From NCBI GenBank assembly GCA_021734395.1, contig JAIPJB010000001.1, positions 186,001 to 250,000 of the forward strand: a DNA stretch of 64,000 nucleotides. The letters are read 5' to 3'. Origin of the DNA: Candidatus Altimarinota bacterium (GTDB taxonomy: Bacteria > Patescibacteriota > Gracilibacteria > UBA4473). The notes under the pieces are model-generated. The model made no database searches. It was given only the letters and a program-made list of their open reading frames with translations, and had not been told where the DNA came from. A program made the position numbers and the translations under genes. The number at the start of each line of letters is the position of its first letter. Positions within the stretch are counted from its first letter, which is position 1. Positions 9,770-40,549 of the stretch are shown piece by piece.

Positions 9770-10479
9770 GCACCAATCTTGGTGCCAATCTTTTTCCCGG
9801 AGACAACTTTTTTGAGGTTTCCCTCTTGCATGAGCTTGAACACAATAATCGGAAGCCCGTGATCTCGGCATTGTGCAATAGCAGTCGCGTCCATAATCTT
9901 GAGATCTTTTTCGAGAACCTGGTCGAAAGAAATTGATTCGAATTTATGTGCTTTCGGATTTTTTTCCGGATCGGCATCATACACAGCATCTACATTCGTG
10001 GCCTTGATCAATACATCACACTGGAGCTCTAACGCTCGCAATGCTGCTGCTGAATCGGTCGTGAAAAAGGGATTCCCAGTCCCCGCAGCACAGATCACAA
10101 TCCGTCCTTTTTCCAGATGTCGCATTGCTCGGCGCGTAATGTACGGCTCCGCAACCGCTGGAATATCTAATGCACTGCACACCCGAGCATGGAGTCCTAT
10201 CTTTTCCATTGCCGCCTGCAGAGCTACGGAATTCATAATCGTCCCCAGCATGCCGATATAATCAGAAGGGACTCTATCAATGCCCGATTCTCCACTTTCC
10301 GCGCCGCGCCAAATATTCCCCGCTCCGATAACCACGATAATCTCAATCCCCATCTTCTGAACCGAAACAATTTCCTGACAGATCTTGTCCAAAACCGAAT
10401 AATCTATTCCAAAACTCTTTTTTCCGAGTAATGCTTCCCCGGAAAGTTTCAACAAAATTCGCTTATATTTTTTTGTCAT
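9766..10479 (-). CDS. pyrH: UMP kinase
   Basis: Phosphorylates UMP to UDP with ATP; hexameric in the family. The amino-acid-kinase fold is shown by KRILLKLSGEAL at the start, IGAGNIWRG, GTGNPFFTTDSAAALRA and DVLIKATNVDAVYDADP. The length of 237 residues is normal. The divergent formyltransferase gene starts 28 bases upstream, so the promoters overlap. Confidence 0.96.
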   Translation of the reverse strand: MTKKYKRILLKLSGEALLGKKSFGIDYSVLDKICQEIVSVQKMGIEIIVVIGAGNIWRGAESGESGIDRVPSDYIGMLGTIMNSVALQAAMEKIGLHARVCSALDIPAVAEPYITRRAMRHLEKGRIVICAAGTGNPFFTTDSAAALRALELQCDVLIKATNVDAVYDADPEKNPKAHKFESISFDQVLEKDLKIMDATAIAQCRDHGLPIIVFKLMQEGNLKKVVSGKKIGTKIGA

Positions 10480-35708: not shown

Positions 35709-37787
35709 ATGGCCCTCTCTCACTATCCTCTCAAACAAGTTCGAAATATCGGTATTATCGCGCATATCGATGCGGGAAAGACAACTGTCACCGAACGTGT
35801 CCTTTTTTATACTGGCCGATCTCACAAGCTCGGAGAAGTGCACGAGGGAGAAGCCATTATGGACTGGATGGAACAAGAACGTGAACGTGGAATCACGATC
35901 ACGTCTGCGGCCACGACCTGTTTTTGGAAGGACTGTCAGATCAATATCATCGACACCCCTGGGCACGTAGATTTTACTGTTGAAGTAGAACGGTCGCTGC
36001 GAGTTTTGGATGGAGCGGTTACTGTTTTTGATGGAGTTGCTGGTGTAGAACCTCAGTCAGAAACAGTGTGGCGACAGGCCGACCGCTATAAGGTTCCCCG
36101 CATGTGCTATATCAATAAATTGGATCGAACTGGTGCCGATTTTTGGCGTTCGTACGAATCTATCCTCAAGCGACTGACAAAAAATGCGCACCCCCTTCAG
36201 ATCCCTATTGGGTCAGAACAGGATTTTAAAGGCATCATTGACCTCATCGAAATGAAAGCCATTATGTTCAAAGACGAAATGGGAAAAGAGGTTGATATCA
36301 TTGATATCCCTGCTGAACACAAAGCGAAAGCGGAAGAGTGGCGAGAAAAAATGCTCGAAGCAGTCGCCACAAGTGATGAAGAGTTGATGGAAAAATATCT
36401 CGGAGGAGAGAATCTATCAGTCGAAGAAATCCGAGAGGGAATTCGACGAGTGACCATTGCAAATGAATTTGTACCAGTGTTAACCGGTTCCGCATTAAAA
36501 AATAAGGGCGTACAGCCTCTTTTGGATGCAGTCACGTATTATCTTCCTTGTCCTTTAGACGTTCCTTCTATCCCCGGAAAAAATCCTGAAACAGAAGCTG
36601 TCGAAGAACGACATGCCGACGAAAAGGAACCACTTGCCGCATTGGCTTTCAAGGTGGCGACCGACCCTTTCGTGGGACGTATTACTTTTGTGCGTGTTTA
36701 TTCTGGGATTATGGAAGCTGGGAGCTATGTATACAACTCCGCCAGCCAGAGCAAAGAACGCATTGGACGATTACTTCAGATGCACTCCAATCACCGAGAA
36801 GAAATCAAAAAAATCCCAGCCGGACACATCGGGGCTGTGGTAGGATTGAAAAATACAAAAACCGGGGAAACACTCTGTGATGAATCAACCCCCATCTTAC
36901 TCGAATCTATCGAATTTCCAGAACCTGTTATTTCGATTTCTATTGAGCCCAAAACAAAAGCCGATCAAGAGAAAATGGCTTTGGCTCTTCAAAAGCTTGC
37001 CGAAGAGGATCCTACCTTCCGAGTCCATACCAACGAAGAAACCAATCAAACTATTATTTCGGGGATGGGAGAATTACATTTGGAGGTGTTGGTCGATCGA
37101 CTCAAGCGGGAATTTAAAGTCGAAGCCAATATTGGCGCTCCTCAAGTTGCTTATCGAGAAACCATTCAAAAAGAAGTCGATGCGGAATACATGCACAAAA
37201 AGCAAACTGGTGGACGCGGACAATATGGACATGTTTTGTGTCACATTCGTCCCGGAGAACCAGGCAGCGGATTCGTTTTCAAAAATGCTATTAAGGGAGC
37301 TTCTATTCCCAACGAATTTATTCCGGGCTGTGAAAAAGGATTTAAAGAAGCCTCCTCTCGTGGTATTTTAGCGGGATATCCAGTGGTAGACGTGGAAGTT
37401 GAACTGTATGACGGAAGCTATCATGATGTTGACTCTTCTGAGATAGCATTTAAAGCCGCTTCCATACAAGCCTTTAAAGATGGAGCCAAACAAGCCGATC
37501 CGGCTCTTTTGGAACCAGTCATGAATGTAGAAATTGTTGCCCCAGAAGAATATCTCGGGGATGTTATGGGAGACGTGTCTTCCCGGCGTGGAATTATCCA
37601 GGAGACCGGAGATCGGGGATTGGCAAAATTTATTGACGCCAAAATCCCGTTGGCTGCGATGTTTGGATACGCCACAGATCTTCGATCTATGACCCAAGGA
37701 CGCGCTACCTATACCATGGAATTTGCCAACTACGAAAAGGTGCCGAAAAATGTGGCAACAGAGATTATTGAAGAACGTGCGGGATAA
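35709..37787 (+). CDS. fusA: Elongation factor G
   Basis: Translocation GTPase. G1 AHIDAGKTT, switch [14 protein letters not shown]3 [10 protein letters not shown]4 [10 protein letters not shown], and the later domains ([24 protein letters not shown]) are present; 692 residues is normal. ATG 35709 is used. In most bacteria fusA sits with rpsL and rpsG; here those genes follow rpoC about 18 kb away and fusA has its own promoter. Confidence 0.97.
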
Positions 37788-37790
37788 AAG

Positions 37791-37818
37791 TTGACAAAAA
37801 ACATTCTTTTTTTATGTT
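37791..37818 (+). promoter_or_regulatory. Promoter of the radical SAM operon
   Basis: TTGACA (37791-37796), 16-base spacer, TATGTT (37813-37818). The start codon of the leader peptide follows after eight bases, so the RNA would start at or next to that codon. Confidence 0.7.
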
Positions 37819-37826
37819 GTTATTGA

Positions 37827-37895
37827 ATGAAAATATTCCTCTTTTGCTTTTGGTATTGGAAAGCTCCGGTTTTGCCGGTGAGGATTTGTGCATAA
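37827..37895 (+). CDS. Leader peptide rich in Phe, Trp and Tyr
   Basis: A 22-codon frame from ATG to TAA beginning MKIFLFCFWYWKAP. Six of residues 4-11 are aromatic (F4, F6, F8, W9, Y10, W11). The aromatic run ends about ten bases before the first attenuator hairpin, so a ribosome stalled there would cover segment 1. This is the arrangement of amino-acid-controlled leader peptides such as TrpL and PheL. The peptide itself probably has no other role. Confidence 0.8.
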   Translation: MKIFLFCFWYWKAPVLPVRICA

Positions 37896-37941
37896 AAAAT
37901 TTCTTTTGTGTTTAAATCTGACCGGCTAAGCCGGTCTTTTT
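37864..37941 (+). promoter_or_regulatory. Transcription attenuator with competing hairpins
   Basis: Segment 1 CCGG (37866-37869) pairs with segment 2 CCGG (37875-37878). Segment 2 read as GCCGGT (37874-37879) is fully complementary to segment 3 ACCGGC (37921-37926), the antiterminator. Segment 3, GACCGGCT (37920-37927), also pairs with segment 4, AGCCGGTC (37929-37936), followed by a T run, the terminator. Stalling at the aromatic codons should favour 2:3 and allow readthrough. Confidence 0.8.
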
Positions 37942-38031
37942 GTTTTTATAGTTCCTTTCAGGGAAGCTATAAGAATTTTTCGTGCTGTGTTCTTTTATAT
38001 TTCAAAACCATTAAAAACAAGGAGACTTCTT

Positions 38032-38904
38032 ATGAATACTTTGTATGTAGACCTCCGCGGGAAATCAAAAGATATCATTTTGAAAAACCTTCGCGCATTT
38101 CTTCAAAACCTAGAGAACCGTAATTTTGATATTCAGCCGTCTAAATTTTCTTTCCAAGAAGCTGAAAACAAAGTCCGTTCAAAAAAATTAGAGGAATTTT
38201 TTGGAAAAAGTGTTCCTTATTCTTTTGCTGAGTTCTCTTCCTCCTTTTCCGGAGAAGACACTCTCTTGATTTTGAACACTTGTCTTCGTTTTACGCCTTC
38301 ATCTTTTCTTACAAAAAAAATCTTTGAACGCGTCCGATACAATAAAAGAGGCATCATTGTTGCGCACCCCCAATCTTGTTTTCGAGGAAAAAACATATTG
38401 CACTATTTTTTCTGCTATATAAAACAGGATGTCGCTTGTGTTCTTCTAAGAAAAGAAAATTTCTTGGAATATGTTCTAGATGTGTCTGTCTTTGAAAAAA
38501 CCCCGAAAGATCCTTCCGGAAAAAATCAGTATCTGGGACAAGATTTAGTGCAATTTCACAGCAAAAATAAAACTTTTGGGAAAGAATTAGGAAGAATAAT
38601 TCAAAAAATTTTTCTTGCTTTTCAAAGCGGTGGATTGGAACTTCTGATCGTCGATCTCCACGGAATTCCCTTCGTCACAAAATCCGGTCGAAAAATTCGT
38701 CGATTTGAAAGAGATTATTTTGTTCCCGTAAAGAATAAAAAAAATGTCGTGTGTGGGGTTTTAGCGGCTGCCGATGTTTTTTTTCAGAGCTCGGAAGAGT
38801 CTCTCAGTCCTTATGAAGGCGGTGTTTATTTCCAGGGCATAGAAACACAAACTGACATAATAAATGAGGATTTTATTCCCGAGAAATGCTTTTTATATGA
38901 ATAA
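38032..38904 (+). CDS. Unknown protein in the radical SAM operon, 290 aa
   Basis: Not recognised. A soluble protein of 290 residues with no signal or membrane helix. Notable stretches are GEDTLLILNTCLRFTPSS, GIIVAHPQSCFRGKN, and in the C-terminal part GLELLIVDLHGIPFVTKSG and RRFERDYFVPVKNKKN. Two of these look like buried beta strands ending in turn residues, so an alpha/beta fold is likely. ATG 38032 is set by a strong Shine-Dalgarno site AAGGAG (38019-38024), unusual in this window. It is transcribed behind the Phe/Trp/Tyr attenuator and 19 bases ahead of the radical SAM gene, so it probably supplies a substrate, partner or further step for that enzyme. Confidence 0.8.
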   Translation: MNTLYVDLRGKSKDIILKNLRAFLQNLENRNFDIQPSKFSFQEAENKVRSKKLEEFFGKSVPYSFAEFSSSFSGEDTLLILNTCLRFTPSSFLTKKIFERVRYNKRGIIVAHPQSCFRGKNILHYFFCYIKQDVACVLLRKENFLEYVLDVSVFEKTPKDPSGKNQYLGQDLVQFHSKNKTFGKELGRIIQKIFLAFQSGGLELLIVDLHGIPFVTKSGRKIRRFERDYFVPVKNKKNVVCGVLAAADVFFQSSEESLSPYEGGVYFQGIETQTDIINEDFIPEKCFLYE

Positions 38905-38923
38905 ACAAAAGGAGGAAAAAATC

Positions 38924-39976
38924 ATGAAAAAACAAATCCTAGATCTCCTAGAAGGAGATCAAGAAAAAAAATTAGATTCTGCCAAAGTCATTCTGGATAA
39001 TATGCCTTTGTTTTTTAATTCGGTAATCCAAGAGGCAAAAACTGTACATTTGGAACATTTCAGCCCGCGTATATTATTATACGCGATAAGTTATATTTCC
39101 GATGTTTGTATTAGTTCTTGCCAATATTGTGGTCACTCCAAAGACAATGCAAGAAAGCGTCGCCGCCTCTCTCTGGAAGAAATAGAGAAAGATTTTTCTG
39201 CTGTTTTGCAATACCACCCTCAGGAGCTGTGCGTATTAGCTGGGGAAGATCCTAAGATTTTCGATCACTTTATAGAAGCTATAAAAATTCTGAACAAACT
39301 GAATCCACATTTTGATAATTGCCTTCAACTGATCAGTCTTAATATTGCCCCTCTCGATAAGCCAAAATTCGAAAAAATAATTCAGGATTCACAGTCAAAA
39401 ATCCCCCTCCAATTTCGGATATTCCAGGAAACATATGACCGAGAAGAATATACACGCAATCATACCGATGGCCCCAAGACTAATTTTGATTTTCGTTATT
39501 CTGCTCAAGAAAGAGCCCTATCATCTGGATTTCAAAGTGTTGGGATTGGAGCACTCCTGGGAATTAACTCAAAAGGAACAAAAGGCAACAACCAGGAAAT
39601 ACTCTCTTTGATTGCTCATGCCTATGATTTAAAAACAAAAACCGGGCAATTCCCCGAAAGTGTCGCCATCCCTCGTTTACAACCAATCCCTGAGCAGCCT
39701 TCCCCCAAAAACTTCGTTGAGGACAAGAGATATATTTTTTATTTAGGAGTCTTGCGTCTAGCACTCCCAACTGTGAAAATCTACATCACAGCCAGAGAAG
39801 TTGCTTCTTTTATCGAAACGGTTGAGCCCTTTATAAATGTCCGCGACCTAGCCCCTCGCCCCTGCGTAGGAGGAAATATTAATGGCATGGATATTACCAA
39901 ATTCCAGAATCTCTTAGGAGATTCTCGTTCTGCCAAGGAGATAATAAATGATCTAAAAAATCGAAATAAAATATAA
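38924..39976 (+). CDS. Radical SAM enzyme of the HydG/ThiH (aromatic amino acid lyase) type
   Basis: 350 residues. The radical SAM cluster motif is CISSCQYCG (C62, C66, C69). Downstream, LNIAPLDKPKFEKI, FQETYDREEYTRNHTDGPK, DFRYSAQERALSSGFQSVGI and IPRLQPIPEQ follow the order of HydG and ThiH, which cleave tyrosine between C-alpha and C-beta; NosL does related chemistry on tryptophan. The C-terminal CxxC cluster domain of HydG is absent, so it is closer to ThiH in build. No thiamine, hydrogenase or thiopeptide gene is nearby. A strong Shine-Dalgarno site AAGGAGG (38909-38915) sets ATG 38924. Substrate (Tyr or Trp) and product are unknown. Confidence 0.88.
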   Translation: MKKQILDLLEGDQEKKLDSAKVILDNMPLFFNSVIQEAKTVHLEHFSPRILLYAISYISDVCISSCQYCGHSKDNARKRRRLSLEEIEKDFSAVLQYHPQELCVLAGEDPKIFDHFIEAIKILNKLNPHFDNCLQLISLNIAPLDKPKFEKIIQDSQSKIPLQFRIFQETYDREEYTRNHTDGPKTNFDFRYSAQERALSSGFQSVGIGALLGINSKGTKGNNQEILSLIAHAYDLKTKTGQFPESVAIPRLQPIPEQPSPKNFVEDKRYIFYLGVLRLALPTVKIYITAREVASFIETVEPFINVRDLAPRPCVGGNINGMDITKFQNLLGDSRSAKEIINDLKNRNKI

Positions 39977-40000
39977 CTTTCTCGAACACAGCACCATATA

Positions 40001-40029
40001 AAAAGTCCCGCTCGAGCGGGACTTTTTTT
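40001..40029 (+). terminator. Terminator of the radical SAM operon
   Basis: AAAAGTCCCGCTCGAGCGGGAC followed by a run of seven T; the 5' A run makes it potentially bidirectional, also ending the minus-strand gene at 40046. Confidence 0.85.
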
Positions 40030-40045: not shown

Positions 40046-40549
40046 TTACCGCAAATACCAATTATACAACTTATTTCGTCCACTCCGCTGACCATCTAGT
40101 TCATTCTTCGCTGATCGATACTTTCGGTTGTATTGAATCGGACTTGGCCTTGAATCGAGAATTGGATCCTTATATCTCCCTTCGTACCGGTCTGTCATCT
40201 GATAGGCTTTTTTGACTCGATTCTTGTAGTGAAGAGATTCCCAAGGCAAAAGTGCCGGTTTCTCAAACTCGAAATACTCTGGAGATTCCTTTTTTACCTC
40301 TTTTAGTTGATATGATGACGTGGAAAAAGGCGTAACGGCCTTTTTTTGATTCTGATATAGCCGTTGCCCGCGGCTCTCTGAAATATTTCCTGAATAATTC
40401 CGAGAAATATCTAAAGAACGATCAACGTTCCTTTTGGGAAGCATAAGTTGATATTGCCCAAAGGGGGATACCTGGGCTGATACAGAAGAAGGGACTAAAA
40501 ATGCTCCCAATAATATTGCGGCGCCGAATATTGAACGAAGATGATTCAT
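40046..40549 (-). CDS. Exported hypothetical protein, 167 aa
   Basis: Not recognised. A signal peptide (FGAAILLGAFLVPSSVSAQ) is followed by a basic, Tyr/Arg-rich mature part with many RY, KY and NR pairs and no cysteine. This composition suggests a secreted, probably disordered or surface-bound protein. Promoter boxes at 40592-40619 leave a leader of about 50 bases. Confidence 0.65.
   Translation of the reverse strand: MNHLRSIFGAAILLGAFLVPSSVSAQVSPFGQYQLMLPKRNVDRSLDISRNYSGNISESRGQRLYQNQKKAVTPFSTSSYQLKEVKKESPEYFEFEKPALLPWESLHYKNRVKKAYQMTDRYEGRYKDPILDSRPSPIQYNRKYRSAKNELDGQRSGRNKLYNWYLR

Follow-up and report, generated by a model that had tools for sequence, protein, structure and literature searches.

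The 64,000-nucleotide stretch of DNA analysed here (the window; contig JAIPJB010000001.1 of a Candidatus Altimarinota bacterium, positions 186,001 to 250,000, or G000:C6:186001-250000) carries a short aromatic leader open reading frame (ORF) and a set of alternative hairpins ahead of a two-gene operon. This leader is probably a ribosome-mediated attenuator, related to the 3′ ends of TrpR- and HisR-type repressor genes, which raises the operon when charged tryptophan tRNA, and probably tyrosine and phenylalanine tRNA, is short. The attenuator and its aromatic signal are, taken by themselves, quite likely, and it is likely that tryptophan status controls the operon, an orphan pair of a PAS-fold protein (gene 1) and a radical S-adenosylmethionine (SAM) enzyme. 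That the pair supplies tryptophan or a precursor is proposed tentatively. The genome of the window (G000) amounts to 1.02 Mb and is 81% complete. The operon-bearing genomes nearest to it are Candidatus Gracilibacteria, and one Candidatus Gracilibacteria genome, G016 (JAIPIF010000001; 76% complete), provides the closest comparison of the leader. The original prediction, a ribosome-type attenuator with aromatic codons controlling an orphan HydG/ThiH-like operon, is upheld by conservation in G016, and TrpR genes found beside the operon elsewhere add support.

The promoter, leader ORF, hairpins, two genes and end terminator all lie at the positions predicted for them, on the plus strand:

37791-37818 (+): predicted promoter, TTGACA (37791-37796), 16 nt, TATGTT (37813-37818); the leader ATG lies 36 nt from the start of the -35 box.
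37827-37895 (+): leader ORF of 22 codons, MKIFLFCFWYWKAPVLPVRICA and stop, with the aromatic run F4, F6, F8, W9, Y10, W11.
37865-37872 (+): region 1, the CCGGTTT side of a weak 1:2 hairpin and the partner of region 4 in free RNA, from folds.
37874-37897 (+): region 2, the antiterminator 5′ arm, including GGATTTGTGCATAAAA, from folds and the G016 alignment.
37903-37925 (+): antiterminator 3′ arm, its end in region 3, from folds.
37920-37946 (+): terminator 3:4, GACCGGC-TAA-GCCGGTC and a T run, from sequence and folds.
37947-37971 (+): hairpin, ~10 bp and a single bulged base, 3′ of the terminator, from shape comparison.
37983-37997 (+): conserved boxA-like box TGCTGTGTTCTTTTA, from alignment with homologous elements.
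38032-38904 (+): gene 1, 290 residues, PAS-fold protein according to a structure model.
38924-39976 (+): radical SAM gene, 350 residues, CX3CX2C, from profiles and a tree.
40001-40029 (+): operon-end terminator, GTCCCGCTCGAGCGGGAC and a T run, from sequence.

RNA 37868-37945 folds at -31.4 kcal/mol, compared with -14.0 +/- 2.9 for shuffled sequences (z -6.1), and 0 of 200 shuffles were as stable. Folding was repeated with the 5′ side blocked as by a ribosome waiting at a chosen codon. With the ribosome masked at codons 10-11 the window RNA forms the antiterminator (-24.8), and with the ribosome at the stop codon it forms the terminator only (-12.8); the G016 leader responds to ribosome position in the same way. 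In both genomes the predicted antiterminator and intrinsic terminator are mutually exclusive, and both lie 5′ of the first gene. The six perfect antiterminator pairs originally described give way to two long pairing arms, 37874-37897 and 37903-37925. An Rfam search of the leader returned no leader family reaching its gathering score, and no convincing aromatic leader was found ahead of the aro, pab or Phe-tRNA synthetase genes of G000. As a stand-alone motif, the 14-mer GGATTTGTGCATAA has few exact matches elsewhere, none linked to the operon.

It is proposed that a ribosome would start at the leaderless ATG of the leader. When aromatic tRNA is sufficient, it would reach the stop codon and cover region 2, allowing the 3:4 terminator to form and turning the operon off. 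A ribosome stalled at F-W-Y-W would instead leave region 2 to pair with region 3, and RNA polymerase would read through. The products, a PAS-fold protein resembling heme-dependent oxidative N-demethylase (HODM) and a radical SAM enzyme, would then aid tryptophan or aromatic supply without the classical trp enzymes.

The G016 operon encodes proteins 43% and 59% identical to those of the window and lies behind a different gene. TTGACA is kept, and the leader ATG is likewise 36 nt from it. The aromatic codons, whose comparison across related genomes had been suggested as a check, are shared: the G016 leader, MHTLFFSFLYWQSRFRR and stop, retains F6, F8, Y10 and W11, and codon 6 differs only synonymously (TTT/TTC). 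A one-base gap then shifts the G016 frame within the hairpins, where the leader ends YWQSRFRR and stop, and GGATTTGTGCATAAAA is identical in the two genomes though read in a different frame. By this alignment, RNA rather than peptide is conserved inside the hairpins, and codons are conserved upstream of the shift. All 25 of 25 predicted pairs form in both the window and G016, three of them carrying one-sided changes, and the G016 terminator shows a single C to T change that converts G-C to G-U.

The tryptophan link rests on more than the window leader, as TrpR neighbours and operator-like palindromes point the same way. A trpR gene lies near the gene 1/radical SAM pair in four other genomes (G002, G016, G613 and G614). 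It is directly upstream in G002 (JALVIB010000080), where gene 1 and the radical SAM gene form a single fused gene (665 residues), and upstream in divergent orientation in G016. The Peribacteria G613 and G614 (L018, L013) have trpR first, followed by a small ORF, a fused gene resembling TrpE/TrpG and then a gene 1::radical SAM fusion. Aligned with E. coli TrpR, the TrpR proteins encoded near the operon in G002, G016 and G614 keep the tryptophan-contact residues R54, R84 and G85, which by eye are likewise present in G613; G85 is missing from the YerC-type homolog in G000. The operon-linked proteins score above the PF01371 cut-off and below that of TIGR01321. A palindrome resembling a TrpR operator, TGTACTAGTACA, spans the -10 box in G002. 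In Peribacteria, GTACTGTTGTAGCGGTAC and GTACCGTTGTAACGGTAC take the form GTAC(C/T)N8GGTAC and are spaced 5+8+5, like the trpR operator of E. coli, GTACTCTTTAGCGAGTAC. No palindrome of the GTAC(C/T)N8GGTAC type occurs across the 1.02 Mb of G000.

The metabolic setting is that of a cell with most shikimate genes. G000 has DAHP synthase, aroB, aroE, aroK, aroA, aroC, pabA, a pabB-like protein and folP, and E. coli trpA, trpB, trpC, pheA, tyrA, thiG and thiC queries found no match in it. Among the candidate phyla radiation (CPR) genomes, TrpA is absent from G000, G016, G613 and G614, and G002 gives a weak partial match. The operon thus probably answers to tryptophan shortage in cells that are probably unable to synthesise tryptophan by the known route. 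The TrpE/TrpG-like fused gene that precedes the gene 1::radical SAM fusion in Peribacteria is the sole chorismate-binding enzyme of these genomes; it has an MNPISGT motif and scores far below the TrpE cut-offs:

L055, 9558-11468 (-): TrpE/TrpG-like fused gene.
L056, 8829-10787: TrpE/TrpG-like fused gene.

The radical SAM protein is, on profiles, alignment and tree, a member of the ThiH/HydG/NosL superfamily in a clade of its own that has lost the tyrosine-phenolate pocket. In the tree, a clade comprising the window protein and its relatives is set apart from ThiH, HydG and NosL with support 99/98, so that the phylogeny proposed earlier identifies the protein as none of the three; the NosL branch is long. 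The main rival to tryptophan supply builds on this kinship: the pair may make a tryptophan-derived metabolite, as a NosL-like tryptophan lyase would, with TrpR and the leader merely tuning it to tryptophan status. Two residues of the protein match NosL, N158 and L128 in ThiH numbering, and S318 has given way to an invariant Asp at the ring-pocket tip, a place where the NH of an indole could bind. However, the NosL profile (TIGR04158) scores 74/400 bits, far below cut-off, and under TrpR repression, as under attenuation, enzyme levels would be expected to rise at low tryptophan, poor logic for a consumer. A tryptophan-derived product is therefore possible, though on the doubtful side. The original prediction combined consumption of tyrosine or tryptophan with expression rising on starvation; judged from sequence, the consumption would fit that rise poorly, and supply would fit it better.

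Related radical SAM genes occur in other settings. A sister clade in Methylococcales and Ignavibacteriales (L016, 4730-11137; L017, 38-5913) follows an ABC binding protein of the amino-acid type and is itself followed by a very large protein; gene 1 is not present at these loci. A Nanoarchaeota contig (L020, 3385-6945) carries two divergent radical SAM paralogs flanking an Lrp/AsnC-like regulator; these represent another clade within the family, with members in WOR-3 and Kuenenbacteria as well.

Gene 1 belongs to no Pfam or NCBIfam family. The PF11927 profile does not match the window protein and reaches E 0.2 among its homologs, in L014 only; a gene 1 profile found no match among PDB sequences. 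An AlphaFold model built from seven sequences has a predicted local distance difference test (pLDDT) score of 82 and a predicted template modelling (pTM) score of 0.84. Its best match is the HODM alpha subunit 5lte (Z 11.3, 217 residues, 4.0 A, 9% identity), followed by DUF438 PAS domains (Z 8.4). On this model, the gene 1 product is a PAS-fold protein resembling the HODM alpha subunit. The two share a PAS-type fold across the whole domain, and differ in that low identity, in the lack of a profile match to the window protein and in the partner, here a radical SAM enzyme. In all seven carriers of gene 1 (five bacterial, two archaeal), the radical SAM gene is either its neighbour or its fusion partner, with fusions in G002, G613 and G614; gene 1 was found nowhere else among the loci examined. 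A phylum-wide search recovered it from G000 alone among 380 genomes, and a class-wide search from 5 of 353; viral contigs searched for both operon proteins contained neither. The archaeal members and sparse spread suggest horizontal transfer, as far as sequences can tell.

The relation of the leader to repressor genes was found from two sides. In G002, TrpR itself ends in ARLQTWWRKLFWRS (WWRKLFWRS and stop), and a terminator comes within ~30 nt. With the ribosome masked at WW this RNA folds into an antiterminator (-22.9), and with the ribosome at the stop codon into the terminator. Among the 1376 long ORFs of G000, 4 have tails with three W within eight residues. A homolog search with a covariance model built from the window leader found, in G003, a homologous element at the end of a YerC-type gene, and such elements also occur in G000, G001 and G016. 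YerC, a histidine regulator of the TrpR family, has been given the name HisR (PMC9413887). These tails have a common order: His codons (HHH, HYH, HRH, HHH), GGCTTCGCCGG or similar, stop, terminator, bulged hairpin, TGTTGYGTTCTTTKA and the next gene. The window leader has every part except the His codons, and carries F-W-Y-W in their place; its 3′ half, including the peptide end, is homologous to the hisR/yerC tails. Across the six homologous elements, the bulged hairpin keeps its shape with unlike sequences, and the covariation in the terminator was reached by 2 of 500 shuffles. Further covariance model matches in G001 (C17:69115) and G042 were judged to be chance.

Three more YerC-type genes with His tails (RHHH, HQHH, HGHH) were found in Peribacteria, and hisG follows two of them (TIGR00070, E 6e-46 and 2e-26). 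One other YerC gene, in G613 (C2), lacks both the tail and the terminator. Masked folding is clear in four Gracilibacteria tails; in Peribacteria the terminator prediction is weaker or the stall cannot be modelled. The His-tailed YerC/HisR repressor genes are:

L061, ~9968-10330 (-): His-tailed repressor gene.
L062, ~10038-10340 (-): His-tailed repressor gene.
L059, ~9942-10240 (-): His-tailed repressor gene.
L054, 9872-10270: His-tailed repressor gene.
L057, 9500-9997 (-): His-tailed repressor gene.
L138, 1237-1670: His-tailed repressor gene.
L139, 150-618 (-): His-tailed repressor gene.

His-rich repressor ends that run into hairpins and a terminator are possible His attenuators within the repressor gene, and no description of attenuators in the tails of amino-acid repressor genes was found in the literature searched. 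The bulged hairpin and TGTTGYGTTCTTTKA box are possibly an antitermination site. The box resembles boxA, and the rRNA leader of G000 carries AGTTCTTTTTTACA ahead of 16S. The third Peribacteria His-tailed gene (L059, G614) and that of G016 (L057) are each followed, ~160-250 nt past the hisR stop, by an unnamed radical SAM gene; these genes, in two distant genomes, belong to no family above cut-off.

This homology, which includes the peptide end, and the lack of a Shine-Dalgarno sequence would also be expected if the leader were a remnant of a trpR/hisR tail whose structures work in response to a signal other than aromatic stalling, such as translation coupling or an unknown ligand. Yet G016 keeps the aromatic codons at a fixed distance from region 1 and does not keep the later frame, and the G002 trpR tail has WW-F-W at the corresponding place. 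A remnant answering to another signal is accordingly rated distinctly unlikely.

Less probable again is that the protein is a ThiH or HydG which has diverged yet continues to cleave tyrosine, giving 2-iminoacetate for thiamine or CO/CN for a hydrogenase. The best profiles are ThiH (TIGR02351, 189/380 bits, 1e-55) and HydG (129/312, 2e-37), and R300 and the cluster cysteines are retained; all scores, however, are far under the cut-offs. Mapped onto tyrosine-bound ThiH (PMC9046217), the window protein has A, D, P and I in place of the phenolate-holding residues T299, S318, S321 and R306, and in place of E158 it has N, as in HydG and NosL. All ThiH/HydG controls, three from CPR genomes included, retain the phenolate four; the archaeal L014 protein and the Methylococcales/Ignavibacteriales sister pair keep R306 and none of the others. 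The second-cluster domain at the C-terminus of HydG is absent, the protein having 350 residues and its profile match stopping at 378/470. With these replacements, and with the tree placing the protein outside ThiH, HydG and NosL, tyrosine is abandoned as the proposed substrate. The predicted lack of a thiamine or hydrogenase link stands: no full-length ThiG was found (short partial profile matches in larger frames in G000, G002 and G016, none in G613 and G614), and [FeFe] hydrogenase is absent from G000, G002 and G016. A PF02906 protein is present in G613 and G614, on contigs other than that of the operon.

Finally, a mere fusA terminator beside a chance aromatic ORF, its Phe codons drawn from T-rich DNA, is strongly disfavoured: fusA ends at 37787, just upstream, with no other obvious terminator, and aromatic runs with terminators give 13 matches (~10 places, mostly Phe from T tracts) across G000, but T tracts do not give W and Y codons, TrpR stands at the operon elsewhere, and G016 has the same promoter, leader, stems and operon behind a different gene. 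The coincidence of run and terminator is thus not unique by sequence alone, and the proof lies in the G016 conservation.

Several observations weigh against an aromatic attenuator serving tryptophan supply. The stand-alone leader is known in two copies only, and two sequences cannot prove covariation; the antiterminator pairs are mostly invariant, and their covariation does not exceed that of shuffles. No Shine-Dalgarno sequence precedes the leader ATG in the window or G016, and as the predicted transcription start lies about 1-2 nt 5′ of the ATG in both, translation would be leaderless at best. The archaeal copies of the pair (L014, L015) show no sign of tryptophan control. G002 and G016 have no chorismate-binding enzyme, so a route from cell-made anthranilate cannot be general. 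Genes scored absent may also be assembly gaps, with G000 81% and G016 76% complete. A folate (PabC-like) role, raised by pabA, pabB and folP without a pabC match in G000, was set aside because of that missing chorismate-binding enzyme and the regulation by tryptophan.

Downstream of the operon, a 167-residue ORF (40046-40549, -) faces it; its product has a signal-like start and matches no family.

Under aromatic attenuation, three regulatory signs (leader codons, TrpR and operator-like palindromes) tie an uncharacterised enzyme pair to tryptophan, and an orphan radical SAM family becomes a pathway problem open to testing, in bacteria regarded as tryptophan auxotrophs. A broader synthesis would make the TrpR/HisR tails a new attenuator class, from which the window leader was cut loose, and the radical SAM/PAS pair a supplier of tryptophan or an aromatic precursor, through a route not yet described, in trpA-less CPR bacteria; as a whole, this is unlikely. 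If true, a single gene would encode a DNA-binding repressor and also supply the leader through which the next operon senses tRNA, with 3′ repressor codons serving as an attenuator leader for His (hisR-hisG) and for Trp (trpR-radical SAM).

Like E. coli trpL/pheL-type attenuators, the window element has codons for the sensed amino acids, an exclusive terminator and antiterminator, and a terminator 5′ of the first gene. The trpL peptide has WW at codons 10-11, where the window leader has Y10 W11. The window leader differs in being leaderless, as predicted, and in its mixed F/Y/W codons, repressor-tail homology and orphan targets. Its radical SAM enzyme shares the barrel, CX3CX2C motif and R300 of ThiH and HydG within the aromatic amino acid lyase superfamily, and differs in the loss of the phenolate pocket, E158 and the HydG C-terminal domain and in its link to a PAS-fold partner and TrpR. 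With NosL it shares N158, L128 and the absence of R306; the profile score is very low, other pocket residues differ, and thiopeptide genes were not seen near the window operon.

The tails recall two further systems. HisR (YerC/YecD) is also a TrpR-family repressor near his genes, and His-codon attenuators are known, but in Firmicutes repressor and attenuator are alternatives in different organisms (PMC9413887); here both would reside in one gene, with the attenuator at its 3′ end. In Chlamydia trachomatis, where trpR is likewise upstream of regulated genes, Trp codons within the repressor gene (trpRBA; YtgCR WWW) tie its translation to trp expression (PMC7755916). There the level of the repressor falls and the effect is exerted in trans (PMC7755916), whereas in G002 the last codons of the repressor would act in cis, on the terminator and antiterminator that follow.

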